This document shows, one piece after another, positions 28,470 through 61,195 of a stretch of DNA of 64,000 bases; within the stretch, counting starts at the first letter, position 1, and each line of letters opens with the position of its first letter. This DNA comes from Carex sylvatica (lineage: Eukaryota; Streptophyta; Magnoliopsida; Poales; Cyperaceae). Made by a program: the position numbers and the translations under genes. Under the pieces are notes generated by a model. The model was not told the origin of the DNA and did no database searches. It saw only the letters and a program-made list of their open reading frames with translations. The DNA lies in assembly GCA_964058845.1 (NCBI GenBank), contig CAXKVR010000159.1, positions 62,001-126,000 of the forward strand. The letters run 5' to 3'.

Positions 28470-28488
28470 GATTTGTGAAAATGGAGAT

Positions 28489-31504: not shown

Positions 31505-33828
31505 TCAATATATAACTTTGTCAGTAACATGGTTTAGATTAGGATGGTTGTGTAGATCAGGATGGTTGTTGATGAGTTTTTGGCATTGAACAACATGCAA
31601 TGTGGTAAGTTGTGACATAGCAGTCGGTTTCACCTCCCAACTCTTCAAGTTCTTCAATTTCTCCAATTTTAAGAATTGCAACTGTGGAAATCCATTTGCA
31701 GAGCAAACCATTTGGTTACCTATGTATGCTTCATCTTGTAAACTCAGTAATTTCAGTGCTTGTAGCCTCTCTAGAGTCGGCATGGGGTCTTCCTTCAAAC
31801 CAGATTTGGTTAGGGTGAGCTTTGTAAGATTTGGTGGAAATTTAACATTATCTATGAGAAGTTTCCGACAAATCCATTCTCCCTCTAGTTTAGCCGATTT
31901 CACCGTCTCGAGATTAGGAAATGCCCTTGTGTCAATAGCCTCTGACGGTATAATGTTGCCCATAATTGCCATTGAGATCAGATTATCCATGTGACTCAAT
32001 AGGTTAGAAATAAATTTCCATTCTAGATTGTCCCAATTTGAAAGTGCTAATTTTCTAAGGTGGATCAGAAAGTGGGGAAACTCTTTTAGCCACGACTCAT
32101 GAGTTGCAACTGTTTTCAGGGTATATAGGTTGTCTATATGTGTTTCAGATGGTGGGCCTTTAATTTGGGGGCTTGAATTAACATAAACATGGCGAAGTGT
32201 TTTGATATTCCATAGAGATTTAGGTAGGGTATCTATGCTTGTATCTCTAACATCCAACGTTTGAAGATTTTTCATGTCTCCTATATTTTCAGGAAGCATA
32301 GATATGTTACTACCCCTCAAGCTCAGATACCGTAGGTAAATCATATCCGGTAATGTTGTTAATGTGATTGTAGAGTTCTTCAGTGCCAACACTTTGAGAA
32401 GCATGGCACTTCCAAGAACAATTCTATCACAATTAAAAGCTAAAAAAGAACGTATATGATTCACCTCCATGTATTGCCTCTCATTGTCTTGATAGATTGA
32501 TAAACGGAACCGGGATTCAATTTCTTTCTGATTTGGATTGACAACCGAAAATCCTTCCATGGATGATTGTTGGATGGCAAATTCATGAATAAAACGAGGT
32601 AATCGACAACTTTTTATTGTGCCAACGATTGATCTCTTGGAAACAAAAACCAACGACCTGCATGCAACAAGGAAAATAATTAAACATCAAATAGGTTTTC
32701 ATAAAAGAACAAAATTTCTCAATTTCTCAACAAGGAAAATAATTATACATCAAATAGGTTTGAAATAACAACCATCATATTACTAATTTTAATTATAAGA
32801 CTGAATTTTAATTTCCTGAAATATTGAGAATACCTTTGAACAAGTTCGTCGAGGTACTTATTTGCAGTTGACTCTAGAGACGTCTGTTCATCCTCTTCTT
32901 CTACAAATTCTTCAGCAATCCACATCTGAGTCAGAGAGGTTGCTGAAATCTCGAAACCAATAGGGTAACATGCAAAATAAAGAAAACACGACTGAAGATA
33001 GTAAGGTAAATCATTATAGCAGTAGGTAAAAATTTGCCCCATATGATCATCGGTTGTAATCTTCTTTTCAGGCCCTGTGATCTTGTCTAGATCATTTTTC
33101 ACCATGTTCCAAATGTTGTTGGCCATTGGTTTGAGCGAAAGGAGCCCCCCTATAAGGAGAACAGCCAAAGTTTGTTCTTTACATGCCTCAAAAATATAAC
33201 CCAGGAGACTTCCCAGTTCCAATCGTAACTTGTAAAAGGACATGCGCCTTTCATGATAATTTTGCATGTTAAAAAGATCTGGAAAAACTTTCTTATGGAA
33301 GAGTGCTTCCATCTTGATACTATTCGGTGTTATGCCATTTGAAATATCCGCTTCCTCAAGAAGCATGTTTTCAATGTTTTTAACTTTATTATTCTGTATT
33401 ATTGTATCCATCTCTTTGAGCCAGTTTCCAAGCTCTTCTAAATGTTCTTCTCTGTTCGCATCAAGCGAAGGGATCCAGTAATGCATCGTGTACGACCTGA
33501 CTTTGACCAATAAATCTTCGATTAAATTTTCAATTTTCACCCAATATTCTGTCTCCAAATCATTCTGGGAGCTGGAGGACTCCTTTCTAGCTTGCCCAAC
33601 AAACTCACCTATTAACTTTCCAACTTTTGGGGCTGTTTCTCGCACAATCATAATTATATCTTGCTGTTTGCCCTCAGGGAGATCCTTGAAATACGGGCTC
33701 TTCATGAATTCCCAAAGTCCCCCTTGAATACTGACTGGAAAATCAAATAGTTTTCCTGTGTCTGATAGCATACCAGACATGTAAAGTAAGGCATCCATCT
33801 CTGTTTCTACTTTCTCAAAATCAACCAA
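31505..33828 (-). CDS. NLR-like protein without NB core, copy A (two exons)
   Basis: Exon 1 is 33828-32834, the intron is 176 bases (GT-AG, phase 2) and exon 2 is 32657-31505, giving 715 residues. The N-terminal ~170 residues are helical and charged; I cannot place them firmly in the Rx-type coiled-coil family. ALFHKKVFPDL (about 175-185) and TLAVLLIGGLLS (220-231, matching GLPLAI) open the ARC2 region. YNDLPYYLQSCFLYFACYP, LTQMWIAEEFV and YLDELVQRSL follow as in the winged-helix domain of CC-NLR immune receptors. The P-loop, kinase-2 and RNBS-B motifs that should precede these are absent. The MHD motif position reads LPR (CRLPRF, 351-353). Exon 2 supplies LRRs (LRYLSLRGSNISMLPENIG, LQTLDVRDTSIDTLP and so on). 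The frame is fully open. A role as decoy, helper or dead receptor is inference. Confidence 0.82.
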
Positions 33829-35059
33829 AAATAATTTCCTCCCTCTCTCTTGCTTTCCTTGTTTGGTTAATTAAAACAGTTTGATTGTGCATAATACACC
33901 CTCAAATCTAATTCAACTGCATGCTCCACCCAACAATTGCAAATCTGCATTGCAAAATAAAACATTAAATAAAAAAGTACTATAAATACACCATACTAAT
34001 TACTGTTTCTTACTAATTATCATGCTAACTTTGTAATAGTAATTTATTTTTCCATACTAATTACTAAGGTTAAGGACAATTTAAATTATATTATACATAT
34101 GTTACTATCTCATTAAATGTACCTAATTAAATATTAAGATTAACTGAGAAATTTTAACAAAATTGGTAGTTATGCTTCACATTTTATCTAAGAGTTACAT
34201 AAATAATTATTAGAGAAATTGTAGAAGTATGTATCACTTTTTTTGCAAACAAAATCTCTGGGAAAGGATTTAAAACAAATTACATGCCTATTTGATTTTT
34301 TGTTTAATTCTAGAAATATTTAAAATATTGAAATCGTCAAAACTGACACTTTATCTTAAAAAAAAAAAAATTTAAACATGTACAAATTATTATTAATACA
34401 ATTTTCAAAGGTCAATTTAAACTGACACTTTATCTCCTCAACACCATTCTAAGCAGCGATACCGTACTAATCTTCAGATAAAACTAAAACATGGTTCGCT
34501 TTCCTTGGACCTAAGCTTGTAATATATGATACCATACTAATTTTAGTAGGGTCTAAAATGAATAAAGTGGCAGAATGCCTTGCTTTGCTTGGGCGGTGAT
34601 AATTGAGATAATGTGTAAAGAGAAATCATCGTGCATACTATACAAAAAAGTAAAGAAAATAAAAGCAGATGATCAGCAAAAATAAAATATGGTTCATATA
34701 ATACCATTTTTTTGTAATATATCACCTTCAAGTAAAATTCACGATTATATTTGAGGTCCTGGTGTCTAACTACTAAGCTATTGAAAAATTAATACTATAT
34801 ATCAGGATTAACAAATTAATTGTAATTATATAAATTGAGCTTGCACGTCATATTAGAATATAATTTTGTGAAATAAAAAAAAAGAGGAGAGGGATATACC
34901 TCGACACGTGTAGAAAGAGTAAGGCACATAATGCAGATATGTGAGCAGAAACATTTTCCTGGTTTCTATTGTTTAGAACAATTGAATTAGTAAAACAACA
35001 ACTGGATAACATACATATTATTATTCAAGTAGTTATAAAAAAGATAGTAATATACCTCT

Positions 35060-35600
35060 ATGTAGATAAATAAATGCTGGGAGAGGCTCAAGCACAAACT
35101 TAATTAAAATCAGAGGTTTATAGTTGGCGACTTTCTTACTAAACTGGCAAACAACAGGAAATTTGATATTAGATTCAAACTTTTTTAGAAAAATCTGTTC
35201 AATCATAAACCCTAAAATCATGATTGAGCCTAATATTATAACCTACTGCACCTTTATAGATGGGTTGTGCAAGAAAGGTGAAGTTGAGAAGACACTGGAT
35301 TTTAAGATGTTGGATTTTCTAGAACCCATGATTTCAAGGGACATGAGCCTAAAGGCTACGAGTCTAATGTCGTATCCTATAGCTCTCTTATACATGGCCT
35401 ATGCAAGAAAGCCTAAATTTTCTGATTGACCTGATGAGCCTAGGTCATGATAAGTTGAGCATGTACATCATATTTCAGGATATAGTTTTGCGAAGCCTAG
35501 AGAGAGATGACATTAACCGCTTACCCAGTATTGTTAATCTTTCAGGACAGGAGGTTAGTTCTGATGCAAGAGAAGTGATAGGAAGGAGATGGTAACTAAG
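35060..35600 (+). pseudogene. PPR gene fragment b, unit A
   Basis: One frame reads PNIITYCTFIDGLCKKGEVE, a typical pentatricopeptide repeat. A second repeat, GHEPKGYESNVVSYSSLIHG followed by LCKK, appears downstream near 35340-35415 in another frame. No complete PPR gene surrounds them. They lie on the plus strand, opposite to the NLR-like gene. The family's proteins bind organelle RNA, but this fragment is frameshifted and too short. It is nearly identical to 54240-54800. Confidence 0.8.
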
Positions 35601-35613
35601 GGAAGAGAGAGGA

Positions 35614-35614
35614 A

Positions 35615-35651
<37 letters not shown>
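35614..35651 (+). repeat. (GT)n(AT)n microsatellite
   Basis: GT repeats are followed by AT repeats just after PPR fragment b. The equivalent place in unit B (54808-54830) has a shorter, interrupted version. Confidence 0.9.
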
Positions 35652-37159
35652 GGAATAAATCATCTCTGACTCTTCACCTTTTTACTAACCCTTTGAATAC
35701 TCCATCCCAAACAGAACGGTATATTGACAGTTTTTCCGATTAATACCCACTAATTTCTAGTTGCAAATAAGCTCTCCCACATCATTCAAAACAGCAATCC
35801 TGAACTAATTTTGAGATTAAACTAAATTTTGGAGATTCAAAGAGTGAACGCTTTAGCAATGTGAGATACTTTGGATATATATATAGTGTCTAAGTTTAGT
35901 AAAAAATAAAGACCAAGATTTTGCTTTTTGTATGTTCCCCACATGAGGATATATTCAAAGAGAGAACGCTTCAGTGTTTTGTGCTCTTAATATTCTTAGT
36001 AAAATTGCTTTACCAAGACATTTTTATATACTTGAGTTTCTATTTTTTTTTTAATCTGATATTACATCGTTCCAAATAATACACTTTTTTTCTTTTGCAA
36101 AATTACTCCTAACTAACTAGATATAAAATATTTATTTGAACAAATTAAACGATAAAACAATAAGCATTTACGTAAAATTAGTCATCTCCAACACTCTAAT
36201 TTTCCCAAACAGAAAATGTTGATTGACAGGGATGTATCCCGTACACTAATTTTCTAATTAAACTAAAAGTACAGAGATTTAAAGAGTGTGCGCAAAGTAA
36301 GATACTTTGAATAGTGCCTAAAATTGGGAATAAAGAAGGACCAACATGAGGAATTGAGGATATATATGTCATATATAGTTAGAAAGCAATTATTCTCTTG
36401 CCCTTTACTAGAAAGCTACGTATTGTCATTTTTACAAACAAATTGTCCGAATAACTTATTCCAGAAAATTCCTGTGAATACAAAATTTCCTTGTGTGTCA
36501 ATATTCCTTCATTTTTTCTCTCTTGTTTTATTTTTCCGCTGAATTCAAAATTTCATTGTGTCTCAATACTATGCTTTGTTGTGCGGTGATATTTCTGATA
36601 AAGTGTAAAAGGAAATCATTGTGCATACTATACAATAAAGTAAAGGAAATATAAAGCAGATGATCAACACAAATAAAACATGGTTGATATATCATACATT
36701 ATATATATATATATATATATTTTGTAACATATCAGCTTCAAGTAAATTCACAAGAAAATTTGTGGTGCTGGTGTCTAACTATAAAGCTATTGAAAAATTA
36801 ATACTATATATGTATCATGATTAACAAAAAATTGTAATTATATAAAATATTTTATATACATATAATAAATTGACCACCGACATAATATTTGTGAATATAA
36901 ATTGAGTTTGGACATCATATTTCATAATATAATTTTGTGAAATAACAAAAGATTAGAGGATACCTCGACACGTGTAGAAAGACAAAGGCACAAAATGCAG
37001 ATATGTCATAAGAAATCTTATCCTAGGTTCCTGTTATGGAGATCAATTGAATTCATAAACAACAACCGTATAACATATGTATTACCAGTCATGTAGTTAT
37101 TAAAAAAAATAGTAATATACCTTTTTGCAGATAAAGATAGGGAGAGACTCTAATAAAAT

Positions 37160-37600
37160 AGTAATATACATTTGTGCAGATAAAGACAGGGAGAGGCTCA
37201 AGTACACAACTGAAAATCAGAGGTTTACTAGTGGCGACTTTCGTACTAGACTGGCAAAGGAGAGGAAATTCGGCATTAGATTCCAAATTTTGTAGCAAAA
37301 TCAGAAAAATCATAAAGCCTAAAATCAGGATCGAGCCTAACATGATGACTTACATCATCTTTATAGATAGGCTATGTAAGAAAGGTGAAGTTGAGAAGAC
37401 AATGGCTTTTGCAGATATCAATGGGCAGCTGCCTAACGTAACTATACATGGGCAATGGAAGAAAGGTTTAACTCAACCGGCATTGGATTTTCAAGAAGTC
37501 ATTATTTTCAAGGGACAGGAGCCTAATTAAAGGGTATGAGACTAATATAGTGTCCTATAACTCTCTTATACATGGCTTGTGCAAGACAGGTTAAATTTCC
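37160..37600 (+). pseudogene. PPR gene fragment c, unit A
   Basis: One frame reads IEPNMMTYIIFIDRLCKKGE followed by VEKTM, a single PPR. Downstream, near 37530-37590, a second repeat (GYETN, VSYNSLIHGLCKTG) can be read only after a one-base shift. The piece between contains QLPNVTIHGQWKKGL. It is a decayed PPR gene on the plus strand, almost identical to 56430-56870. Confidence 0.78.
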
Positions 37601-38499
37601 TGACCTAACAAGCCTAGGTCACGATAAATTGAGCATGTACATCTGATTTAAGCATATACTTTGAAAAACCTAGGGAGAGGTGACAGGAGCCGCTTACTTG
37701 GTACTGTTGCTCTTTGTAGACAGGAGGTTTGTTGTGATGCACTCGGCAGGAGAAGAGAAAGGAAGAAGAGGGTAACAAAGGGAATTGGGAGGAAGTATAT
37801 ATATAGGGGTAGATTGACACAGTTTTTCAGCAAAGTGATGAGATACTTTGGATGAAGTTTAAGTTTAGGAATAAAGAAAGACCAACACATGAGGAATTGA
37901 GGATAGTAACAGCTAGAAAATATTTATTCTCTTATCCTCTGTTGGTAGCAATTTTGCTAGTCCTTTGCAAAACATGGATGGTGACAGATTTGCTGGCTTT
38001 GAAGTAAATACAAATATGATAGCAATTTTGTCACTATCTTCATGAATAAAGCAAATACAGACATAGATCCAGTCCATACAAAACAACAATTATGCATGCT
38101 ATAATATATGAATAAAACGATATAACGAAAAGAAATAACTAACATTTTGATCCTCTGCATTTGAGCGAAATTGAAATTGTTACACATATAAGAGGAGCAA
38201 CATATATAATTATATAACAATTAATTAGACGGATACAGATTGGAATTTCTTCATCTTGTGGTCTTAAACAACTCCTAATTGAGCCCGGTTAGTATAAGTT
38301 ATTAATGAAAATTTCAATATATGTGTAACAATATAATTTTAACAAAAATAATATGTACATTATTCATAGTATAAATAAGAAAACTCTAGACCCAAAAGCA
38401 ATTATAATCTATAACATCTACTAATTAATTATATCAATAATTATAACAAATTTTAATTATTTTGATGCAGAAATTACACAGTTTGATGTAATCAATAAT

Positions 38500-38668
38500 G
38501 AGTGAGGCTATGGTACTTGGCCAAGCACACAGTTTTGTTGTGCTTTGATATATGAGACGTTGGATTCACATCTAATATTATCTGGCACGAATCTTGATAC
38601 GAATCCAACGTCTCATATATCAAAGCACAACAAAACTGTGTGCTTGGCCAAGTACCATAGCCTCACTC
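38500..38668. mobile_element. Mutator-like MITE with perfect 68-bp inverted ends
   Basis: The arms 38500-38567 and 38601-38668 are exact inverted copies over 68 bases (outer end GAGTGAGGCTATGG), around a 33-base spacer. ATCAATAAT flanks both sides (38491-38499 and 38669-38677), a perfect 9-bp target duplication typical of Mutator-like elements. The element is 169 bases and has no coding capacity. Perfect ends and a perfect duplication point to a recent insertion. Confidence 0.92.
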
Positions 38669-38689
38669 ATCAATAATCATACATTTTTG

Positions 38690-41600
38690 TGATCCCTCGT
38701 TTTTCTTTTTTCATCGCTTGTTCCGAGGACCCAAGAGATTACTTATGGAGCTACAGTCGGGACAGGTAACCTTTTTTTTTTTTTTTTCTCTTTATGAAAT
38801 CTCAAAGAATTTGATAGATCTTAACTTTGTTTTGTATTATGACTCGATTACCTTTATCTTTTCCCGATGCACAACTAGCTTGCTGCTTGTAATTAAGATC
38901 AATTGCTAATTAAATTGCATGGTCATGATTGGTTGCAATGTGTCGATTTAAAAACACGACTATATATATGTAAAAATATGATAGGACATATATTTCGAAA
39001 AATAAAAATATATATGATGGAACGTAGTCATAATTGGTTGCTATTTAAATTTAAGGAGGATTAAGTGATTACTTAATTTAACTTCTTTTATTTTATACTT
39101 CATTTAGACATAAATTAATTTATTGAAAAAGTAAGATGTTGGAAAAGACTTATCTGATTTGCTATCGTTCCAAATAATACATTTTTTCCTTTGTAAAGGT
39201 GATAAAAAGTACAGTGCAAAATTATGACAAGTTCACTTCTCCAATCTGGCAAATTGGGCGAGAAGAACGAAGACGGTGTTTAATGGATATCCAAGTGATA
39301 GCTTCGGAGAAATCATTGGAGTACAACAGAGACTAGATGAGGCGTTTTATATTTTTGAAGAACAAGGCTAATAAATCTTTCTACCAGGAAAGAACACAGC
39401 AACATGATCGAGTAGATAGCTACAGTACCAAGCAATAGCATGGTTAAGATAACTTTTAATTCCTAGCTTTAATTTAATTTTTAGTATGTGTTTTACCTGA
39501 TGTTTTTAGTTTACTATTTCTTCTTTCTAAGAATGTAATAGAACCAATTTAAATTGAATTAAAATAGGCCTACGGATTTCTCATAAAAAAAATAAAATAA
39601 AAAATAAGCAGAGTGCAAACTATATATAAGCATAGATCATCTCTCCCAAACCGAAAAGGTTGATTGACAGTGTTTTCACAATAATACTTAATAATTTGCC
39701 ATTTATAAATAATCTTATCTACATCATTCGAAACAGCTAATGTATCCGGTACACTAATTTTCTGATTAAACTAAAACTACTGATATTCAAGGAGTGTGTG
39801 CAAAGTAAGATATATACTTTGGATAGTCTCTAAGATTAGCAATAAAGAAAGAACAACATGAGGAATTGAGAATACATATTTAACTACAGAAAGCAATTAT
39901 TCTCTTGTCCTTTATTGATAGCAATTTTACTTGACCTTTGCATGTTACTCCTAGCACTTTTAGACACTGGCTTGTTACAACTTCCTCTTTTACTAAGAAA
40001 TCATCTACATCTATTACATCCGCCTTTCAAAAATTATGAGACAGTTTCTAAAACTTACAAAATGTTAATGATGTTTGGAGAAAATACTTAAGCTTTAGAT
40101 ATTGCATGAAATTAACTGAGGCTGAATTAATTAAAAACATGAATATATAATTAGATTTTTTATCATATTATTAAACTTTTTTCCAATAAATATATTTTCG
40201 CTCGTATATCATTTAAAAAACAACAATCTTTTGTGCAGACGCCATATTCTGACCAAAGAAGTACGAACAATTTCTGATTTGTTCTACCAGATATTGGTGC
40301 CGGTTTTTGAAGTTTAGAAAAGTAGATATTAACAAATTTTGGACCAAAGGTCCAGACCCAATTTCAGTTCAAACCATCCCGTTCCCCTTTCAAAAGAACA
40401 GCTCAAACTAATTTTCGGTCGATTTTAAAACTTTCTTCCATACGAATACTGCAATGACAGTATAATTTATATATTTGTTTTTCAGATTTCACTGAAATAT
40501 ATATAAATATATATTAAAATTAAATTATATTTAACATTTTCTTTAGCAGAATCATGCAGCAAATATTTTTTTCTCAAATACTAAAGATATGTACAATGAA
40601 AAATAATATAATATAATACTAAGTGGAATGTAAATTAATATCTGCATAAGAATGCGAAAAGTGTTATATTATTTTAAGATTTTTTGTAACGTCTCAGACA
40701 TTGAACGCCATTTGTTGAAATACATCTGGATTCATGAGAAGAGAACAAAAATAATCAACTCTTTTTTTTATTAAAATATAATATTTAATTTGTTAAAAAT
40801 AATTCAAGCCCATATATATATAAAACACTATGCGGGTCATAATGGCTTTTTGCTTTAACTAATTTCATCTTTTTTTTAGGTGATTTTTACTCTTTTTTAC
40901 AAACTTGCGCTTATTTTGGAGAAGTGAACCACTTTTTTTTTTTGGAAAAAGGAACAAAGTTTAGTGACTTGGAGATGAATCATTTCACGGGGATTGTTCT
41001 TTCTTTTCTCTTTTGTTCAAATAAACATTTTCACTTAGTAGTAATCTTGCAAAAGAAAAAGATATTATTAAAAGCAGTGTATGTCCTTCATTGGAATGAT
41101 AAATGCAATTGCCAAGATCATGATTCACTGGGTATTTCCATTATGAAGGCCTCTACAAAGAAAGAAAGAAAGAAAGAATGAAATGTGGGATTTGTTAGAA
41201 ATGCTTCTTGCCCCTAATTACTTTGTTATCTATTCAATTATATATTATTCGCTGTCTACAACTACAAGTGATAAAGTTGCATTTATGAAAATTATGGACT
41301 GCGTGGATATATGACTGCATTTATGAAAGTTGCATTTATGAAAATTATTCGCTGTCTACAGCTACATTCTTATCGCCATCCATAATTGGAGGGTATGTGT
41401 ATGTGCACGTGCATGACAAGAGGGAAAAAAAATTGCATTTAGATTCTAACCACTTGATCACAGTACTTGCCCACTTTCCTCAATGTCGCTCCCATGATCA
41501 AGAATTGTCATATGTTTCATTATAACTGTATATTATTCAAGTAACATGACAAATTAAAGTAAAGTAAATAAGAAAAATAATATGTACATTATTCATAGTA

Positions 41601-42629
41601 TAAAAGTTTTTTATATTTTTTTTATTTTTTTCAGAAGTTTTAATTTATAATATTCTCTACAAAAATAATTATGTATAATTGATCATGACACGTCGTCACA
41701 CATTTCTTTCATCCCTCATTTCTTTTTTTATCATTGCAAGTTTTGAAGACCCAGAAGATAACTTGTGGGGTTACAGTCGCGGGACAACTAACCTTTTTTT
41801 CTGTCTGAAATCGCAAAGAATTCGGTAGATCTTAACTTTTTTTTGTATTATGAGTCAAGTAATTTTATCATTTCCCTATGTACAACTTAATTGTTGCTTA
41901 CAGATACAAAAAAGATTGTTCTAATTCGGCATGTTGGATTATTAGCCAGCTAGATTTTAATTTTGATTAATTATGTACTGTACGTAGTTTCTGAATATTT
42001 TGTAATCTGTATATGCAAAGTTTTTATTTATTTTGAATTAGGTGCCACTGGTATGGATGTGAATTCTTGTGACGAGTCAAGATTAATTGTCAACATGTTG
42101 AGTTAGATTGGTTTTAAAAAAATAGTGTGAAATTTTAAGTATTAACTTGATAATTTAGATTTTAATATGTATGATATTTAAACACTAACATAATATTTAC
42201 TAATTTTTTGGTTCATTTGATATGTTTGGTTTATTTGGTTTTTAATTGTCAAAACTGAACATTAAATTGAAAATCAAACCATCACTACAATTTTCAAAAT
42301 GAATAGACTTGAATTGAACAATGAAACCATTATATCTGAACAAAAATTAATTTGGTTTAAATAAAAAAAGTGAACCATTAATTGGGACACCCCTAGCTAA
42401 TTAATTGTATGTCTTCTCATTTAATATTTAATATTTTTTTAACTTGGACTATTTGGGTGTCTCGTAAGAAATTTTTTTAAACTTGGACTATTTTGTTTGG
42501 CTTCGCCTTGAACATAAAATTATTTATTGAAGAAATGATTTTATTTTTGAATTGATTCAAATATTATCAAATATAATGGGAACTTCTCAAAGAATAAATG
42601 AAACTTCCAAAAGATATGCAATAAGATAA
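38690..42629. other. Intergenic DNA between units A and B, with an internal duplication
   Basis: About 38690-38890 and 41700-41900 are diverged direct copies (shared GAAGACCC/GAGGACCC, TTACAGTCG and GATCTTAACTTT strings). 38340-38380 also matches 41560-41600. 39620-39950 repeats sequence found downstream of the PPR fragments (CATCTCTCCCAAAC, GATTGACAG). A short reading at 39243-39370 (FNGYPSDSFGEIIGVQQRLD) could be retroelement debris. No gene is supported. Confidence 0.5.
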
Positions 42630-43170
42630 TTGGCAACATATTTGGGTTTGGGTTTATTGTCAACAGATTAATTGGACAATTTTCGGCATTTGAAACATGA
42701 TCTATTTTTTATGCACAATATACCCATGAAAATTGATGAAATATCAAGTACCTTGAATTTATGCACAAGTCATTTAAATTTGAAAAGGTCCGAATTTGAC
42801 AACATTTGATTAAATATTAAATAACATTCAAATTCATGAAATTGATGCACATTCGATCTAGAAGGCTAACAGCATGTCTCTAAATTTTTCTCAATATTTA
42901 AAAATCTTTTTGAGTTTATTTGAAAAAGAGTTATCAGTGAATACCGACCCTTCACATTTTAGGCTTTTTCATTTAAACAAAAATGTTACAAAATAGGTCA
43001 TTAAATCGTGACCAAAATCATACTAATTTCAGTAATCAGGCCATCAGATCATGTTTATTTCAGCCATTGTTGCAGATAACGATCTCTTAATTCGAAACGA
43101 ATTGAAAGAAATTCCTTACTGGAGAGTGTACCAAGTATTTGGTAATAGATTAGTAGTGCTCAAATGTTAC
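42630..43170 (+). repeat. Third copy of the intron 2 region of the three-exon pseudogene
   Basis: The segment aligns with 30035-30535 and 46465-46975. Shared strings are CAACAGATTAATTGGACAAT, GACAACATTTGATT, AGAAGGCTAAC and AGCATGTCTCTAAATTTTT. It contains no exon of that gene. It indicates a further, truncated duplication unit between A and B. Confidence 0.75.
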
Positions 43171-47205: not shown

Positions 47206-48095
47206 GGCATTTAAAACCATCTGTGCCTTTTAGCATGTTGTTCTATTTATGGTTTATATTTTTTTCCTTCAAATCATGGATAATTGATAGCTTTTATGGA
47301 TTTGTTTTAGTGTAAAATAGTTTGTTGATTATTAATGTTGTATTTTTATAGTTATGCAAGTACCTTAATTTGAGACGCTTATAATTTGGCCTTATAGAAA
47401 TAAACACTGCATGGCATTCCATCAAGATTCAGACAGAAATTTTCCTTTTTTTCAAATTCTCATTGAGTGGTGCCAAAAAAAGAAAGAAGTCAAATAAAGT
47501 AGCCGAACTATTTATTCCTCAACTATTTCTCAGATTGGATTTCTCAGATTGGGTTGCAGATGTTCGAACCATGTCAAGATTTGTGCAGATCAAGTGCGCA
47601 CAAATCTTGATGCAAATCGAAATGCTTCCCAATTTGTTCCGATAGCCATCAGAACGCTCCAAAGAAAAACAAACTTTGTGAAAGTTTCAAGGATTATCCC
47701 GAAATCCGTCTAACTTGTTTTTTGAATAGAAATGCATTTGATTTTTTTGCAAATTTTGTTACGCTAACCAGTAAATCATGACACTGTTCTAGAATCAAAA
47801 GAAAAAATTTAAATGAGTAAATATACCATTTGATTTAAATGGAAACACAAAATCCATTGGTTTACTCAATGTAACTACAATATACATCATAATTAACACA
47901 TGCATAAAACAAACACACATTGAAACATGAACATAAAAAACAAGGGACTAAAATACACAAAAAAAAAAGAAATAAGAAAAAAGAAGTCAAATTGAACAAA
48001 AGGAAAAATAAAAAAACAAGGGATTCACATACACAAAAAAAATTAAAAAAATTAAATGTCAAACTGAATAAAAGAAAGAGACTGAAAGCAGCATT

Positions 48096-50508
48096 TCAAT
48101 CTATAACTTTATCAGTAACATGGTTTAGATTAGGATGGTTGCATAGACCAAGATGGTTGCTCATGAGTTTTTGGCATTGAACAACACGCAATGTGGTAAG
48201 TTGTGACATAGCTGTCGGTTTCACCTCCCAATTCTCTAAGTTCTTCAATTTCTCCAATTTTAAGAATTGCAACTGTGGAAACCCATTTGCAGAGCAAACC
48301 ATTTGGTTACCTATGTATGCTTCATCTTGTAAACTCAGAAGTTTCAGTACTTGTAGCCTCTCTAGCGTCGGCATGGGGTCTTCCTTCAAACCAGATTTGG
48401 TTAGGGTGAGCTTTGTAAGATTTGGTGGAAATTTAACATTATCTATGGGAAATTTCCGACAAATCCATTCTCCCTCTAGTTTAATGGATTTGACCGTCTT
48501 GAGATTTGGAAATGCCCTTATGTCAAGAGCCTCTGACGGTATAATGTTGCTCATAATTGCCATCGAGATCAGATTATCCATGTGACTCAATAGGTTAGAA
48601 ATAAATTTCCATTCTAGATTGTCCCAATTTGAAAGTGCTAATTTTCTAAGGTGGATCAGGAAGTGGGGAAACTCTTTTAACCACGACTCATGAGCTGCAA
48701 CTGTTTTCAGGGTATATAGGTTGTCTATATGTGTTTCAGAGGGTGGGCCTTTAATTTGGGGGCTTTGTTTCACATAAACATGGCGAAGTGTTTTGATATT
48801 CCATAGAGATTCAGGCAGGGTATCTATGTTTGTATCTCTAACATCCAACGTTTGAAGATTTTTCATGTCTCCTATATTTTCAGGAAGCTTAGATATGTTA
48901 CTACACCTGAAGCTCAGATACCGTAGGTAAATCATATCCGGTAATGTTGTTACTGGGATTGTAGACTTTCTCAGTGCCAACACTTTTAGGAGCATGGCAC
49001 TTCCAAGAATAATTCTATCACAATTAAAAGCTAAAAAAGAACGTATATGATTCACCTCCGTGTATTGGTTCTCATTGTCTTGATAGATTGCTAAACGGAA
49101 CCGGGATTCAATTTCTTTCTGATTTGGATTGACAACCAAAAACCCTTCCATGGATGATTGTTGGATGGCAAATTCATGAATAGAACGAGGCAAACGACAA
49201 CTTTTTATTGTGCCAGAGATTGATCTCTTGGAAACAAAAACCAACGACCTGCACGCAACAAGGAAAATAATTAAACATCAAATAGATTTTCATAAAAGAA
49301 CAAAATTTCTCAATTTACATAAAAAAGAAAAAAATAATGCTTTTATTATCAAGTAGACCAAAGATAATTATATACTCTTATTGTACTAAAACAGAGAAAT
49401 TTAATTTTTATTGATGACCTATTTTTAGGAAACCGCAACCTAATGTTTGAAATAGCAACCATCCTATTACTAATTTTAATTATAAGACTGAATTTTAATT
49501 TCTGAAATATTGAGAATACCTTTGAACAAGTTCGTCGAGGTACTTATTTGCAGTTGACTCTAGAGACGTCTCTTTATCCTCTTCTTCTACAAATTCTTCA
49601 GCAATCCACATCTGAGTTAGAGAGGTTGCTGGAATCTCGAAACCAATAGGGTAACATGCAAAATAAAGAAAACACGACTGAAGATAGTAAGGTAAATCAT
49701 TATAGCAGTAGGTAAAAATTTTCCCCATATGATTGGTTGTAATCATCTCATTAGGCCCTGTGATCTTGTCCAGATCATTTTTCACCATGTTCCAAATGTT
49801 GTTGGCCTTTGGTTTGAGCGAAAGGAGCCCCCCTATAAGGAGAATAGCCAAAGGTTGTTTTTGACATGCATCAGAAATATAATATCTGAGACTTCCCAGT
49901 TCCATTCGTAACTTGTAATAGAACATGCGCCTTTCTTGGTCATTCTGCATGTTAAAAAGATCTGGAAAAGCTTTCTTATAGAAGAGTGCTGAACTCTCCT
50001 CGATATTCAGTGTTATGCCATTTGAAATATCCGCTTCCTCAAGAAGCATGTTTTCAATGCGTTTAACTTTATTATTCTGTAATAATGTATCCTTCTCGTT
50101 GAGCCAGTTTTCAATCATTTCTAAATCTTCTCTGCTGTCAACTTCGAGCATCCTGATCGTGTAATCCAGCATGTCCCTGACTTTTTCCATTAAATCTTTG
50201 AGTAAATTTTCGATTTTCTCCCTATATTCTTTCGCCAAATCATTCTGGGAGCTAGAGGACTCCTTTCTAGCTTGTCCAACAAACTCACCTATTAGCTTTC
50301 CAACTTTTGGGGTTGTTTCTCGCACAATCATAATTATATCCTGCTGTTTGTCCACAGTGAGTTCCTTGAACCATCTGCTCTTCATGAATTCCCGAAGTCC
50401 CCGTAGATTGTTGGATGGCAAATCAAATAGATTTCCCGTGTCTGATACCATACCAGACATGTAAAGTACGGCATCCATCTCTCTTTCTACTTTCTCAAAA
50501 TCAACCAA
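48096..50508 (-). CDS. NLR-like protein without NB core, copy B (two exons)
   Basis: Exon 1 is 50508-49520, the intron is 271 bases and exon 2 is 49248-48096, giving 713 residues with frame kept across the phase-2 junction. The layout equals copy A: N-terminal helical region, SALFYKKAFPDLFNM, QPLAILLIGGLLSLKP, CFLYFACYPIGFEIP, LTQMWIAEEFVEEE, then LRRs. P-loop and kinase-2 are absent and CRLPRS stands at the MHD position. Compared with copy A it has two fewer residues in exon 1, a longer intron and many substitutions, most visible in the N-terminal 170 residues. PPR fragments a, b and c lie upstream on the other strand. Confidence 0.82.
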
Positions 50509-51869
50509 AAATTATTTCCTCCCTCTCTCTTGCTATCCTTGTTTGGTTAATTAAAACAGTTTGATCGTGCGGAATACACTCTCAAATCTAATTCAACTGC
50601 ATGCTCGACCCAGCAATTGCAAATCTGCAATGGAAAATAAAACATTAAATTAAGAGTACTATAAATACAGCGTACGAATTACTGTTCCTTAATTTTCATG
50701 CTAACTTTGTAATAGTACGTAAATTAATTTTTCATACTAATTACTAAGGTTAAGGACAATTTAAAATTATTACCTTTATTACCATACTTTAATTAGGGAT
50801 TTTACAATTAGAGTCCTGATCAATTCAAACGATTCATAAAATGATTGAACTTGAGAAACAAAATGATATGCATCATTCAATATATGAACAAAAACATAGA
50901 ATACGATATGCATCATTCATTTCTGAATATTCTTCTCTGTTGATGAAATGAGATATCTCCACAAAAACCGTATTTAATTTCCATGTTATAAGTTTCTGAT
51001 AAACTGCAAATACAACCATATATAGTCAAATTTCGTGCACACTAGTTTCTCATTAAATGTATCAAATTAAATACAGAGATTATATAATACTTACAAATAT
51101 AATTACTAGAGAAATTTTCGGAAGAGTTTATCAATTTTTATTCAAACAAAAGCTACGTACAGGAATGATTTTGAAACAATTTAATGGCTATAAGATTTTT
51201 CGTATAATTGTGGACACATTTAAAATTATGACATCTTCAAAACTAACACTTGTGCTCCAAATAATATCTAAATCATGTAAAATTATTATTAGACAATTTT
51301 AAAAGTAAATATCAATTTGTACTCCAAAATTAGTTTCAGTATAGCATTTTGACTGCATAATAGATATTTTCTAGTTGTGGAGTCATTCAAGTGATTAAAC
51401 AACCAAAAAGGTCGATTGATAATTTTTCAGATTAATACCCAATAATTGTCATTCATAAATAAGCTCATGTACTTCATTGAAAACAGTTATTCAAAGAGGA
51501 TAAATAGACGTCTCTTGAGATGACTGCAAAGAGTGGACCACGAAGCTATGGAAAAATTAATACTACATATCAAGATTAACAAAAAAATATGTATATAGTA
51601 TACACATATACATATCCATATAATAAATTAAGCATCTACACTAGTTATGCGATATAAATTGATCATTGACATTATATTTCAGAATATAGTTTTGTGAACT
51701 AAAAAAAGATGAGAGGAATACCTCGACAGCTGTTGAAAGGCACAGAATGCAGATATGTGAGCAAAAATTTTATCCTGGATTCAAATTGTTAAAGGCAATT
51801 GAATTAATGAACAACAACAAGATAACATATATATTATTTGTCATGTAATTATTAAATAAAAAATAGTAA

Positions 51870-52150
51870 TATACCTCTGTGCAGATAAAAACAGGCAAGT
51901 AGAGACTCAAGTAACCAACTGGAAATCAGGACCTTCGTACGAAACTGGCAAAGGAGAGAAAATTTAGCATTAAATTCATTTTTTTTAGCAAAATCAGAAA
52001 ATCCATCAACCCTAAAATCGGAATTGAGCCTAACATCATGACCTACAAAACCTTATAGATGGACTCTGCAAGAAAGGTGAAATTCACAAGACAATACATT
52101 TTTAGAAAGTAATGATTTTGAAGGGCCATGAGCCTAATTATGGATATGAG
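51870..52150 (+). pseudogene. PPR gene fragment a, unit B
   Basis: The reading IGIEPNIMTYKTL continues as IDGLCKKGEIHKTI only after a one-base shift. It is followed by GHEPN-like sequence near 52120. It is a single decayed PPR on the plus strand. Its equivalent in unit C is at 62650-62960; unit A has lost it. Confidence 0.7.
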
Positions 52151-54239
52151 TCTATTTCAATAGAGGATTATATATAGGTAATAGCTAGAAAACAATTATT
52201 CTCTTGTCCTTGTAACTTCTTGGTAGAAAATGCATATTCTTTGTGCGCCTTCCAGTAGTTGCATGGTCATCAATCAATATTGCTTTCATATTTTTTTGTC
52301 TACTTCGATTGATGGTTTGATGTATATATCTTTCAAGCTAAACAATTACAATAATTAATGGAAAAGCTCTTCTCAACTGGAGTTCAGTTCTTGTTTCTAT
52401 CGATCGGTGCTTATCAGTACGTTTTCTTTTTATATTATGGTTACAAAATATGTCACATTGAGTATATATATATGTACATATATTATTTTACAAAATACTA
52501 TTTATTTGTTTTCTATTGTGAATAGGAAAAATCATACAAAAAGAAAAGATTCTTAAATATCCAAATATACATTAGTCTTGCGGTTAAGAATCCCAGCAAA
52601 TTAAGATAGACACTAAATCTATATTATTATTTTTTAATAAATTATAATTTGTATAATTTAGTTAGAACTTCAGAGGTTACTGCTTAGCACTAAGACACTC
52701 GAGCTTGTTACAACTTAATTTCTCCCCTATTAATTAAGAAACCAATTACATCTATTACATTTATGAAAAAGGCTTATCAAAATAATTTCGTCTAAGTTTT
52801 CTTTAATACATTTTTATATATATAGCTGAGTTAGTTATGTACGTACGTAGATCTTTTACATATTGCTCCAAACTCTTATTATTAATAAGTTTAATCTATT
52901 TTTAATAAACTAGACACCTAAATCAAAAATTTCAAGTATAAAATGTAATGTCAAATATCAAATATGTCAATTAAATTAAAGATAATCTAATCATAAACTA
53001 AAGAACAATATTTTCTTGTTTTTCCAAAAAGTATCATTTTTACAAACGAACCGTTGGAACAACTTGTTCTATGTAGTATACTTTACTCAAATTCAATTTC
53101 CCATATTAATTTTTGGACGCAACACATGGTATAATAATGCATGATTGGTTATCCACACACCAATTCACCGTATAGACAAATATCCATGTCATGCATGTTA
53201 CTCATAAACAACCATCTAGTAAAATTGTCACGTGGTAAACATTATTATCGCATTAAATGTACCTAATTAAATAATAAGATTAACTGAGAAATATTAACAA
53301 AATTGGTAGTTATGCATCATATTTTATCTAATACTTACATAAATAATGATTATAGAAATTGCAGAAGTATGTATCACTTTTTTTTTTTGCAAACAAAAGT
53401 TCTGGGAAAGGATTTAAAACAAATTACATGCCTATTTGATTTTTCGTTTAATTCTAGAAACATTTAAAATGTTGAAATCGTCAAAACTGACACTTTATCT
53501 TAAAAAAAAAAAAATTTAACATGTACAAATTATTATTATTAATGCAATTTTCAAAGGTCGATTGATAGTTTTTTTGGATGATTATTATGTAATTGTCATT
53601 TTCAAATAATCTCCTCTACATCATTCTAAGCAGCAATACCGTACTAATCTTCAGATAAAACTAAAACATGGTTCGCTTTGCTTGGGCCTAAGCTTGTAAT
53701 ATATGATACCGTACTAATATTGGTAGGGTTTAAAAGGAATAAAGTGGCAGAATGCCTTGCTTTGTTTGGGCGGTGATAATTGAGATAATGTGTAAAAAGA
53801 AATCATAGTGCATACTATACAAAAAAAGTAAAGGAAATACAAGCAGTTGATCAGCAAAAATAAAATATGGTTCATATAATACCATTTTTTTTTTGTAATA
53901 TATCAGCTTCAAGTAAAATTTACGATAAAATTTGAGATATTGGAGTCTAACTACAAAGCTATTGAAAAAATAATACTATATATTAGGATTGACAAATTAA
54001 TTGTAATTATATAAATTGATCAGCTTGCACATCAGATTAGAATATAATTTTGTGAAATAAAAAAAAGAGGAGAGGGATACCTCGAAACATGTAGAAAGAG
54101 TAAGGCACAGAATGCAGATATGTGAATAGAAATCTTTTTCTGGTTTCTATTGTTAAGAACAATTGAATTAGTAAAACAACAACTAGATAGCATACATATT
54201 ATTATTCAAGTAGTTATAAAAAACAAAATATATATATAC

Positions 54240-54800
54240 CTCTATGTAGATAAATAAATGCAGGGAGAGGCTCAAGCACAAACTTAAAATCAGAGGTTTA
54301 TAGTTAGCGACTTTCTTACTAAACTGGCAAACAAGAGGAAATTTGATATTAGATTCCAACTTTTTTAGAAAAAACTGTTCAACCATAAACCCTAAAATCA
54401 TGATTGAGACTAATATTATAACCTACTGCACCTTTATAGATGGGTTGTGCAAGAAAGGTGAAGTTGAGAAGACACTGGATTTTGAGATGTCATTGGATTT
54501 TCTAGAACCCATGATTTCAAGGGACATGAGCCTAAAGGCTACGAGTCTAATGTCGTATCCTATAGCTCTCTTATACATGGCCTATGCAAGAAAGCTGAAA
54601 TTTCCTAATCGGCCTGATGAGCCTAGGTTGTCTAGGTCATGATAAGTTGAGCATGTATATCATATTTCAGGATATAGTTTTGCGAAACCTAGAGAGAGAT
54701 GACATTAACTGCTTACCCGGTATAGTTGATCTTTCAGGACAGGAGGTTCGTTCTGATGCAAGAGAAGTGAGAGGAAGGAGATCGTAACTGAGGGAAGAAG
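54240..54800 (+). pseudogene. PPR gene fragment b, unit B
   Basis: It reads IETNIITYCTFIDGLCKKGE then VEKTLDFEM, with a second PPR (GYESNVVSYSSLIHGLCKK) in another frame near 54530-54595. Frame and content match 35060-35600 with scattered changes. It is non-functional. Confidence 0.8.
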
Positions 54801-56429
54801 GAGGAAGTGTGTGTGTGCGTGTATATATATAGGAATAGATCATCTCTCACTCTTCACCTTTTTACTAACCCTATGAGTACTCTCTCCCAATCAGAACGGT
54901 ATATTGACAGTTTTTCAGATTAATACCCACTAATTTCTATTTGCAAATAAGCTCTCCTACATCATTCAAAACAGCAATCCTGAACTAATTTTGAGATTAA
55001 ACTAAAATTATGGAGATTTAAAGAGTAAACGCTTCAGCAAAGTGAGATACTTTGAATAGTGTCTAAATTTAGTAAAAAAAAATAAAGACCAAGATTTTGC
55101 TTTTTGTATGTTCCCCACATGAGGATATATTCAAAGAGTGAATGCTTCAGCATTTTGTGCTCTTAATATTCTTAGTAAAATTGCTTTACCAAGCCATTTA
55201 TACTTCCGTTTTTTATTTTTTTATTATAATCTGATATGCCATCGTTCGATATAATACATTTTTCTTTTGCAAAATTACTCCTAATTAACTAAATATAAAA
55301 TATTTATTTGAACAAAAGAGAAAACAATAAGCATTTACGTGAAATTAGTCATCTCCAACTTATAAGCAGTGCAAACTTATATATATAACACTTAGTAGCA
55401 ACTGCTAAGATTTTAAAAAAAAAAAACTTTATATATATAAGGATGGATCATCTCTCCCAAACAGAAAATGTTGATTGACAGGGATGTATCCCATACACTA
55501 ATTTTCTAATTAAACTAAAACTACGGAGATTCAAAGAGTGTGCTCAAAGTAAGATACTTTGGATAGGGTCTAAGATTGAGAATAAAGAAAGATCAACATG
55601 AGGAATTGAGAATATATATGTAATAGTTGGAAAGCAATTATTAACTTGCCCTTTGCTGGAAAGCAACTCATAGCTGGTAAGATGCTTCTCAAAGTAATTC
55701 TATTACTTTTTTTGTGTTTCTAAAAACTTATTGTCATTTTTTACAAACAAATTGTCCGAATAACTTATTTTGAAATTCTTGTGAACACAAAATTTCATCG
55801 TGTGTCAATATTCCTTCATTTTTTCTGTCTAGCTTTCTTTTTCCTCTGAATTCAAAATTTCATTGTGTGTCAATACGTACTCTGCTTTGTTGGGCGGTGA
55901 TAATTGTGATAAAGTGTAAAAAGAAATCATAGTGCATACTATACAATAAAGTAAAGAAAATACAAAGCAGATATTCAACAAAAATAAAACATGGTTGATA
56001 TCATACAATATAACTCTTTTTTGTAATATATCAGCTTCTAGTAAATTCACAAGAAAATTTGAGGTGCTGGTGTCTAAATAAACCTATTGAAAAATTAATA
56101 AATTGAACACCTACATTATATAAAATATATAATTATATAAAATATTTTATATATATATCTACATATAATAAATTGAACACCTACATTATATTTGTGAATA
56201 TAAATTGAGTTTGCACATCATATTTCATAATATAATTTTGTGAAATAAAAAAAGATGAGAGGATACCTCGACTCGTGTAGAAAGAGAAAGGCACAAAATG
56301 CAGATATCTCAGAAGAAATCTTATCCTAGGTTCCTATTATGGAGATCAATTGAATTAATAAACAACAACTGTATAACATATGTATTATCAGTCAAGTAGT
56401 TATTAAAAAGAAATAGTAATATACCTTTA

Positions 56430-57030
56430 TGCAGATAATTAAAAACAGGGAGATGCTCAAGTACACAACTGAAAATCAGATGTTTACTAGTGGCGACTTC
56501 CGTACAAGACTGTCAAAGGAGAGGAAATTCGGCATTAGATTCCAAATTTTGTTGCAAAATCAGAAAAATCATAAAGCCTAAAATCAGGATCGAGCCTAAC
56601 ATGATGACTTACATCATCTTTATAGATAGGCTGTGTAAGAAAGGTGGAGTTGAGAAGACAATGGATTTTGTAGATATCAATGGGCAGCTGCCCAACGTAA
56701 CTATACATGGGCAATGGAAGAAAGGTTTAACTCAACAGGCATTGGATTTTCAAGAAGTCATTATTTTCAAGGGACAGGAGCCTAATTAAAGGGTATGAGA
56801 CTAATATGGTGTCCTATAACTCTCTTATACATGGCTTGTGCAAGACAGGTTAAATTTCCTGACCTAACAAGCCTAGGTCATGACAAATTGAGCATGTACA
56901 TCTGATTTAAGAATATATATAGTTTGAAACACCTAGAGAGAGGTGACAGGAGCCGCTTACCCGGTACTGTTGCTCTTTGTAGACAGGAGGCTCGTTCTGA
57001 TGCACTCGGCAGGAGAAGAGAAAGGAAGAA
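56430..57030 (+). pseudogene. PPR gene fragment c, unit B
   Basis: It reads RIEPNMMTYIIFIDRLCKKG then GVEKTMDFVD. A second repeat, GYETNMVSYNSLIHGLCKT (about 56792-56848), is uninterrupted but out of frame with the first and beyond a stop. It matches 37160-37760. The downstream piece (TPCTLF-free, purine-rich, 56930-57030) is also shared. It is non-functional. Confidence 0.78.
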
Positions 57031-57719
57031 GAGGGTAACAAAGGGAATGGAGAGGAAGTATATATATAGGTGTAGATTGACACAGTTTTTCAGCAAAGTG
57101 ATGAGATACTTTGGATGAGGTTTAAGTTTAGGAATAAAGAAAGACCAACACATGAGGAATTGAGGATAGTACCAGCTGGAAAACACTTATTCTCTTATCC
57201 TTTGTTGGTAGCAATTTTGCTAGTCCTTTGCAAAACATGGATGGTGACAGATTTGCTGGCTTTGAAGTAAATACAGACATAGATCCAGTCCATACAAAAC
57301 AACAATTAATTATGCATGCTATAATATATAAATAAAACGATATAACGAAAAGAAATCACTAACATCTTGATCCTCTGAATTTGAGCCAAATTGAAATTGT
57401 TACACATATAAGAGGAGCAACATATATAATTATATAACAATTAATTAGACGGATCCAGATTGAAATTACTGCATCTTCTGCTCTTGGAGAACTCCCAATT
57501 GAGCCAAATTAGTATAAGTTATTAATGAAAATTTCAATATATGTAACAATATAATTTTAACAAAAATAATATGAATTTTCGTGTACCATCCTGATTTTAT
57601 GTTGAGATTTAATTAATGTATGTATGATTAATTTCTAGCAAACATGGATAATAGCATAAAATGAATCATTGGTTTAATACTCCAATCATGTTCCATACAT
57701 TGATCCGAACTACTCAACA

Positions 57720-58330
57720 TGATCTTTCTATTAAAATGTGCTTGGAGACCAAATTTTATATTTTTTGAGTTATATTTACAATTTATTTTTCGATAGGTAC
57801 AAATTACTATTTTCAGTTGATTTGTACCAACCTAACAAATTAGTAAACAGAAGATGCTAATGAGAAAGTAATACTCATTAGCTGTATCTCTAATTCTGTA
57901 AAAATCAATATTACTTTCTCATTATAGCTGTATCTCTCATTATTTTTTATTTCCTTCAGTATTTATATACAGCTAATGAGAAAGTATTAGTAATTTTTTA
58001 TGGTACAGCTTATGAGTATTTATATATAATTAGAGATACATCTAGCTAATCAGTATTTATATAGCTTAGCTAGCTGTACCTCCAAAAATCAGTAATACTT
58101 CCTCATTAGCTGTAAAGTAATATTAATTTTTGCAGAATTAGAGATACAACTAATGAGTATTACTTTCTCATTAGCATCTTTTGTTTCCAGTGGAATTGTT
58201 TTTACTATTTTGTCAGGTTGGTACAATTTTTTTTTTTTTTTTTTTGGATGGTTCAAAATCATATGAAACTAGTCATTTTGTACCTATCGAAAAACAAATA
58301 GTAAAAAAAAATTAGTCATTTTTGTATTCG
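57720..58330. mobile_element. Large foldback element with internal GCTAATGAGAAAGTAAT repeats
   Basis: The left part (TTTTCGATAGGTACAAATTACTATTT and on, 57785-57915) is repeated in inverted form at 58130-58315 (ATTTTGTACCTATCGAAAAAC). The centre repeats AGCTAATGAGAAAGTA and its complement several times. The left flank (57725-57770) carries half of the TA-targeted foldback MITE (TGTGCTTGGAGACCAAATTT). It sits exactly at the junction between duplication units B and C. Confidence 0.65.
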
Positions 58331-58865
58331 ATAAGACAGGTATGGATATGATTTGCGCATATCAAGTGTGCACAAATCTTGATGCAAATCTAAATGCTTC
58401 CCAATTTGTTCCGATGCCCATCCTCCAAAGAAAAACAAACTTTTTGAAAGTTTCAAGGATTATCTCGGAATCCGTCTAACTTGTTTTTTGAATAGAAATG
58501 CATTTGAATTTTTTGCAAATTTTGTTACGCTAACCAGTAAACCATGACACTGTTTTAGAATCAAAAGAAAATTTTAAATGAGTAAATACACCATTTGATT
58601 TAGATGGAAACACAAAATCCATTGGTTTACTCAATGTAACACCAATATATATACATCATAATTAACACATATACATAAAACACAACACACATTGAAACAT
58701 GAACATAAAAAACAAGGGACTCACATACACAAAAAAATAAAAAAAATAATAAAAAGAGTCAAACTGAATAAAAGGAAAAATAAAAAACAAGAGATTCACA
58801 TACACAAAAAAATAAAATAAATAAAAAGTCAAACTGAATAAAAGGAAGAGACTGAAAGCAGCATT

Positions 58866-61195
58866 TCAATCTATAACTTTGTCAGTAACATGATTTAGAT
58901 TAGGATGGTTGCCTAGATCAGGATAGTTGCTGATGAGTTTTTGGCATTGAACAACACACAATGTGGTCAATTGTGACATAGCCGCCGGTTTCACCTCCCA
59001 ATTCTCCAAGTTCTCCAATTTCTCCAATTTTAAGAATTGCAACTGTGGAAACCCATTTGTAGAGCAAACCATTTGCTTCCCTGTGTATGCTTCATCTTGT
59101 AAAATCAGAAGTTTCAATGCTTGTAGCCTCTCTAGCGTCGGCATGGGGTCTTCCTTCAAATTGGATTTGGTTAGGGTGAGCTTTGTAAGATTTGGTGGAA
59201 ATTTAACATTATCTATGAGAAGTTTCCTACAAATCCATTCTCCCTCTAGTTTAGCTGATTTCACTGTCTCGAGATTTTGAAATGCCCTTATGTCAATAGC
59301 CTCTGACGGTATAATGTTACCCATAATTGCCATTGAGATCAGATTATCCATATGACTCAATAGGTTAGAAATAAATTTCGAGTCGAGATTGTCGCAATTT
59401 GAAAGTGCAAATTTTCTAAGGTGGATCAAAAAGTGGGGAAACTTTTTTAGCCACGACTCATGAGCTGCAAATGTTTTCAGGGTATGTAGGTTTTCTATAT
59501 GTGTTTCAGAGGGTGGGCCTTTAATTTGGGGGCTTGGTTGCACATAAACATGGCGAAGTGTTTTGATATTCCACAGAGATTCCGGTAGGGTATCTATGCT
59601 TGTATCTCTAACATCCAACGTTTGAAGATTTTTCATGTCTCCTATATTTTCAGGAAGCTTAGATATGTTACTACCCCTCAAGCTCAGATACCGTAGGTAA
59701 ATCATATCCTGTAATGTTGTCACTGGGATTGTAGAGTTCCTCAGTGCCAACACTTTGAGGAGCATGGCACTTCCAAGAACAATTCTATCACAATTAAAAG
59801 CTAAAAAAGAACGTATATGATTCACCTCCGTGTATTGCTTCTCATTGTCTTGATAGATTGCTAAACGGAACCGGGATTCAATTTCTTTCTGATTTGGATT
59901 GACAACCGAAAACTCTTCTATGTGTGATTGTTGGATGGAGAATTCATGAATAGAACGAGGCAATCGACAACTTTTTATTGTGCCAGAGATTGATCTCTTG
60001 GAAACAAAAACCAATGACCTGTACGCAACAAGAATAATAATTATACATCAAATAGATTTTCATAAAAGAACAAAATTTCTCAATTTCTCAACAAGGAAAA
60101 TAAATATACATCAAATAGGTTTGAAATAGCAACCATCATATTACTAATTTTAATTATAAGACTGAATTTTAATTTCCTAAAATATTGAGAATACCTTTGA
60201 ACAAGTTCGTCGAGGTACTTATTTGCAGTTGATTCTAGAGACGTCTGTTTATCCTCTTCTTCTACAAATTCTTCAGCAATCCACATCTGAGTTAGAGAGG
60301 TTGCTGGAATCTCGAATCCAATAGGGTAACATGCAAAATAAAGAAAACACGGTTGAAGAAAGTAAGGTAAATCATTATAGCAGTAGGTAAAAATTTGCCC
60401 CATATGATCGGTTGTAATCCTCTCATTAGGCCTTGTGATCTTGTCCAGATCATTTTTCACCATGTTCCAAATGTTGTTGACCATTGGTTTGAGCGAAAGG
60501 AGCCCCCCTATAAGGAGAACAGCCAAAGGTTGTTTTTGACATGCCCCAGAAATCTCACCCAGGAGACTTCCCAGTTCCATTCCTAAGTTGTAAAATAACA
60601 TGAGTCTTTCATGATCATTCTTCATGTTAGAAAGATCTGGAAAAGCTTTCTTATAGAAGAGTGATCCCCCCTCGTCCCAATTCAGTGTTATGCCGTTTGA
60701 AATACTTGCTTCCTCAAGAAGCATGTTTTCAATATTTTTAACTTTATTATTATGTATTATTGTATCCATAATCTCGTTGAGCCAGTTTCCAAGCTCTTCT
60801 AAATATTCTTCTCTGTTTTCAAAATCGAGCTGAACGATTGACCAACCTTTCATGTACGTATACTTCACTTTGTGCATTAAATCTTTGATTAAATTTTCAA
60901 TTTTCTCCCTATATTCTATCGCCAAATCATTCTGGGAGCTGGAGGACTCCTTTCTAGCTTGCCCAACAAACTCACCTATTAACTTTCCAACTTTTGGGGT
61001 TGTTTCTCGCACAATCATATTTATATCCTGCTGTTTGTCCACAGTGAGTTCCTTGAACCATCTGCTCTTCATGACTTCCCGAAGTCCCAGTAGATTGTTG
61101 GATGGAAAATCAAATAGTTTTTCCGTGTCTGATAGCATACCAGACATGCAAAGTACGGCATCCATCTCTGTTTCTAGTTTCCCAAAATCAACCAA
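58866..61195 (-). CDS. NLR-like protein without NB core, copy C (two exons)
   Basis: Exon 1 is 61195-60195, the intron is 176 bases and exon 2 is 60018-58866, giving 717 residues. It has SLFYKKAFPDLSNM, QPLAVLLIGGLLSLKP, CFLYFACYPIGFEIP, LTQMWIAEEFVEEE and YLDELVQRSL joined across the phase-2 splice to VFVSKRSISG. The P-loop and kinase-2 are absent and the MHD position again reads LPR. The LRR part is open to the same C terminus (LNHVTDKVID). The N-terminal region differs from A and B by small in-frame insertions (for example near TYMKGWSIVQLDFE). An open frame with in-frame length changes in a third copy argues against simple decay. Confidence 0.82.

Follow-up and report, generated by a model that had tools for sequence, protein, structure and literature searches.

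A Carex family of NLR-like genes without the nucleotide-binding core

Three tandem genes and their domain anatomy

We analysed a 64 kb window (64,000 nucleotides; positions 62,001 to 126,000 of contig CAXKVR010000159.1, C159 below, of Carex sylvatica assembly GCA_964058845.1), which holds three tandem genes related to coiled-coil (CC) type nucleotide-binding (NB) leucine-rich repeat (LRR) receptors (NLRs; CC-type NLRs, CNLs). Copies A, B and C lie on the minus strand at 31505-33798, 48096-50478 and 58866-61165, and each consists of two exons whose open frames are joined by a single phase 2 splice (AAG/GT...AG/G). Translated from ATG, the proteins have 705 (A), 703 (B) and 707 (C) amino acids (aa), with identities of 84% for A-B, 84% for A-C and 85% for B-C. 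The initial annotation had assigned each copy one spliceable frame, which stands, and lengths of 715, 713 and 717 residues, which do not, as the ten extra codons start at TTG. The chosen ATG (MDA...) is also the start in nine of 21 Carex rostrata models. The exons and introns are as follows.

31505-32657, minus: copy A exon 2, with the end of the winged helix, a degenerate MHD motif (LPR), the LRR and the stop
32658-32833, minus: copy A intron, 176 bp, phase 2; read unspliced, stop after 351 aa
32834-33798, minus: copy A exon 1, with the helical N-terminus, the ARC1 remnant and the start of the winged helix
48096-49248, minus: copy B exon 2
49249-49519, minus: copy B intron, 271 bp, phase 2; read unspliced, 327 aa
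49520-50478, minus: copy B exon 1
58866-60018, minus: copy C exon 2
60019-60194, minus: copy C intron, 176 bp, phase 2; read unspliced, 361 aa
60195-61165, minus: copy C exon 1

Retention of the intron in any of the three would stop the protein soon after exon 1, a possible short form.

In all three copies a helical N-terminus is followed by an RNBS-C/GLPL-like ARC1, then by the winged helix and the LRR, and about the first 155 of the 248 positions of NB-ARC are missing, including the P-loop and kinase-2. Judged by CNL features, ARC1, winged helix and LRR are present and the NB subdomain (P-loop, kinase-2, RNBS-A/B) is not. The following regions of copy B were delimited.

50014-50478, minus: residues 1-155, N-terminal region without a Pfam match above cut-off; low-confidence helical model; pN/pS 0.98 across seven copies
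49699-50013, minus: residues 156-260, kept end of NB-ARC from RNBS-C to ARC1, with GLPL-like KQPLA (Pfam; profile-profile alignment)
48114-49049, minus: residues 387-698, LRR region (LRR_14, Pfam)

A Pfam scan of copies A and B placed WH_DRP and LRR_14 (E about 6e-33) far above cut-off in both, while the NB-ARC match, in copy B and slightly under cut-off, was confined to profile positions 155-247 of 248. This C-terminal end of NB-ARC passes the cut-off in P0009, P0012 and P0017, which are divergent C. rostrata proteins, and the first part is again absent. Rx_N gave no Pfam match at E<=1 in copies A and B, and none in C. rostrata P0001, P0009, P0012 and P0017, whereas the NB-bearing relatives P0025 and P0133 have a nearly whole NB-ARC and Rx_N at E 1e-20 or better. 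The predicted structure of the N-terminus is helical with low confidence (pLDDT 61), and a fold search with it gave nothing significant; a structural search with P0001 matched NRC1.

To look for the core itself we used a profile that spans P-loop through RNBS-C and derives from 18 full NLRs, run in six frames with all filters off. It found no match at E<=10 in the window and a sole match at E 5.2 among the family loci, against matches at E<=2e-31 in 25 NB-bearing locus records, in which two places are represented twice. The absence of the core from three tandem copies, as initially described, is thus borne out by Pfam and by the unfiltered profile. A missed exon or an assembly gap had been named as what could overturn it, and neither was found: the window has no runs of N, a single uninterrupted frame carries exon 1 from the N-terminus to the winged helix, so that no NB exon can lie between, and the same truncation in 18 C. 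rostrata gene models dismisses both explanations. The aspartate of the MHD motif is gone as well, in seven of seven C. sylvatica copies and in 21 of 21 C. rostrata models.

Phylogeny and selective constraint of the family

A search for proteins with the same gap, proposed in the initial annotation, was run with copy B as query, and since the best 120 of 444 matches are listed, the family counts are lower bounds. The first 24 listed rows, none of which has an NB-ARC annotation, comprise 21 C. rostrata models (P0001-P0020, P0024) and three metagenome exon-2 fragments (P0021-P0023); P0097 and P0120, further rows of this kind, lie outside the family analysis. Of the 21 listed C. rostrata models, 18 have an N-terminal part and the winged-helix domain (WHD) and LRR with the same truncation, among them P0003 and P0016 with a short N-terminus and P0024 with an incomplete LRR; the other three, P0005, P0011 and P0020, are partial models without the N-terminus. 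In C. sylvatica the survey covered a partial assembly (64 Mb, 950 contigs) and yielded 13 family places, with intact genes at A, B, C, D, E, G, H and L, the last read exon by exon.

A FastTree phylogeny built on 93 LRR-exon sequences united all 31 members of the family in one clade, with support 1.0 and a long stem, surrounded by NB-bearing CNLs. An earlier tree of 77 sequences gave the whole family of 33 a support of 0.883 and contained three sublineages with C. rostrata members (A-D, 0.947; E-G-H, 0.999; L-K, 0.851). Because the family is one clade and is common to C. rostrata, the loss of the NB core predates the duplications, in agreement with the first reading, and the shared sublineages mean that the truncated form outlived a speciation. 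The C109 loci, nearest NB-bearing clade in the 77-sequence tree, did not keep that position in the 93-sequence tree.

Selection was estimated from seven intact close copies (A, B, C, D, E, G and H; 21 pairs), excluding L, which is divergent though intact, and F, I, J and K, which are broken. The ratio of mean nonsynonymous to mean synonymous divergence (dN/dS) was 0.98 for residues 1-155, 0.80 for residues 156-319 and 0.50 for the LRR, where dN was below dS in at least 95% of bootstraps for 18 of the 21 pairs. With a finer division, pN/pS was 1.05 (0.70-1.67) in ARC1, 0.51 (0.29-0.96) in the WHD and 0.52 (0.39-0.71) in the LRR; within the N-terminus it was 1.52 (0.88-3.03) for residues 1-60, 0.25 (0.10-0.62) for 61-85 and 0.95 (0.64-1.52) for 86-155. 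Of 5000 permutations, 32 reached the difference seen between N-terminus and LRR. As control, four full C. sylvatica NLRs (6 pairs; all of one group, the WHD/LRR border placed by distance as no MHD motif was found) gave 0.41 for the CC, 0.43 for NB-ARC1, 0.20 for the WHD and 0.53 for the LRR; the family LRR is therefore about as constrained as that of these control genes, while constraint on the N-terminus and ARC1 is weaker than theirs. A dN/dS check had been suggested initially, with a value near 1 as refutation; its answer is divided, with values of about 0.5 in WHD and LRR and near 1 in the N-terminus and ARC1. Simple decay does not describe these genes, since WHD and LRR evolve under purifying selection, and given ratios of about 1 elsewhere the constraint does not span the whole protein.

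Residues 61-85 of copy B (50224-50298, minus) form a constrained island with a serine run inside the near-neutral N-terminus. Copies B and D (L029, C159:165500-169669) are near-identical in exon 2 (48096-49248 in B; dS 0.026) and not in exon 1 (dS 0.12-0.15), a contrast that hints at gene conversion, or at recombination close to the intron. Places I (L030, C159:137998-139704, from about residue 204 on) and J (L031, C159:148953-149942, residues 1-219), about 9 kb apart and agreeing in order and strand, may be one gene split by an insertion.

Elsewhere in the window, the blocks 34102-38355, upstream of A, and 53242-57573, between B and C, are repeats of 87-89% identity with further shorter repeats inside. 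Two other open frames lie on the minus strand, one at 27291-28487 with a match to an F-box-protein beta-propeller (At3g26010-like, E 1.4e-7) and one at 25833-26552 with a RING finger (zf-RING_2, E 1.1e-12).

A proposed nucleotide-independent scaffold and its alternatives

In our reading the family descends from CNL-type NLRs that lost the NB subdomain (P-loop to RNBS-B), most simply once and before the family expanded, leaving the helical N-terminus, ARC1, winged helix and LRR. Because P-loop and kinase-2 are absent and the MHD aspartate is lost, no ADP/ATP switch is expected here, and from general knowledge of NLRs a family protein, if produced, would be unlikely to form a resistosome alone. 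As the winged helix and LRR are the constrained parts, we infer a nucleotide-independent scaffold whose winged helix-LRR part would bind NB-bearing NLRs, an effector or a guarded protein, and such binding would modulate or titrate signalling. Our favoured reading, to which we give a probability of roughly 0.45, is a regressively evolved NLR scaffold of this kind, most likely a modulator or decoy; a decoy or adaptor role had been proposed initially for the copies and is possible.

Several observations weigh against this reading. Neither the NB-core profile on the window nor the NB-ARC matches listed on the contigs revealed a partner NLR, six of the 31 tree members (P0005, P0011, P0020, P0021-P0023) are too partial to show their NB status, and one of the three exon-2 fragments of the clade, metagenome P0022, has VQD at the MHD place, so that loss of the aspartate is not uniform across the clade. 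Five of the 13 C. sylvatica places are broken or fragmentary (F, with a frameshift in exon 1, I, J, K and the C109 fragment), and the near-neutral N-terminus and ARC1 are compatible with partial decay as well. The initial view that the genes are kept rather than decaying therefore stands for the WHD and LRR and is not fully supported for these parts and places. We doubt, while taking it seriously, that the copies are dying relics with residual LRR constraint, whose frames stay open through recent duplication and conversion: the broken places, the neutral ratios and the sign of conversion in B and D speak for such slow decay, and the purifying selection on WHD and LRR and the three sublineages common to C. 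rostrata speak against it.

Other readings give the parts different tasks. It is improbable that the proteins play the executor in an NLR pair, the part that RXL takes beside Pm5e in wheat, with a CC N-terminus that would signal on assembly by an NB-bearing partner. The order of N-terminus, WHD and LRR and the degenerate MHD motif are as in RXL (PMC11933841), but Rx_N is unmatched, the N-terminus is near-neutral, and, with 115 of 168 candidates scored, no NB-ARC match is listed on C159 (169,669 bp), C268 or C26, the one on C220 being about 110 kb off. About equally improbable is an inverted division of labour, in which the conserved winged helix-LRR part would bind a fixed partner and the fast-changing N-terminal helical region would recognise; if true, NB-less NLRs would have arisen here independently and been overlooked by censuses demanding a whole NB-ARC. 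That the LRR acts apart from NLRs, as free-standing bait for, or sensor of, some conserved effector or host target, is quite unlikely: it agrees with the constraint on WHD and LRR, but has no known target, and the LRRs of effector-sensing NLRs often diversify. An artefact, be it a missed NB exon, a collapsed assembly or a wrong gene model, is barely credible; the assembly examined is partial, yet the unbroken exon 1, a window free of NB core, about 15% divergence among copies and the same form in an independent genome all contradict it.

Comparison with known switch-less NLRs

An NLR deprived of its nucleotide switch is usually considered disabled, yet here such a loss was followed by duplication and by survival in at least two plants. 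Among NB-bearing genes the comparison is with RPP8/RPP13-like CNLs of Carex, Rhynchospora and Juncus, whose WHD and LRR are homologous to those of the sedge family and whose intron, to judge from the starts of LRR-exon matches at many C. sylvatica loci, appears to lie at the same place. They differ in having a full NB-ARC and Rx_N (e.g. P0025, P0133), and among the matches listed they reach at most 39% identity to copy B.

The architecture, at first called unusual, is rare but has precedents in Pb1, NRG1C (AtNRG1.3) and RXL (PMC8559963, PMC11933841): RefPlantNLR lists these three as NLRs with heavily truncated NB-ARC and applies the term "regressive evolution" to Pb1 and RXL (PMC8559963). Wheat RXL resembles the sedge family in its CC-type order, truncated NB-ARC, kept WHD and LRR and degenerate MHD motif, and in being a monophyletic multi-copy family, with 1 to 18 copies per species (PMC11933841). 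RXL has neither the NB domain (NBD) nor HD1, occurs in several copies in Pooideae and works together with Pm5e, its head-to-head neighbour (PMC11933841). It keeps the WHD alone of NB-ARC, whereas the sedge family retains ARC1/HD1 with RNBS-C and a GLPL-like motif; and its ZAR1-like CC and head-to-head partner (PMC11933841) have no counterpart found in the sedge family. Of the RXL-type features, the sedge genes thus share NBD loss with WHD-LRR kept, and not HD1 loss or, in the window and among the NB-ARC matches listed for contig C159, the paired arrangement. The reported orthologues of RXL come from Pooideae and Miscanthus (PMC11933841), a range which, with RXL compared by description, suggests that the two losses are separate.

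Rice Pb1 has no P-loop and binds OsWRKY45 (PMC3782705); like the sedge family it has a degenerate NB domain, and it is functional in resistance, but it is, by description, one resistance gene, whose product carries two CC domains at its N-terminus (PMC3782705, PMC8559963). Arabidopsis NRG1C, termed with NRCX a modulator NLR, is likewise truncated and antagonises its full-length relatives (PMC9851556), and it was among the structural matches of the family WHD-LRR part. It differs in lacking the CCR domain and in belonging to the CCR (RPW8-type) helper lineage, not to RPP8/RPP13-like NLRs (PMC9851556). The kind is thus already known from RXL, Pb1 and NRG1C, and what is new is a sedge clade that retains ARC1 and has no linked NB-bearing partner found on its contig. 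Together with these three systems it suggests that NLR counts based on NB-ARC can overlook such families, and that switch-less NLRs arise repeatedly and can persist.
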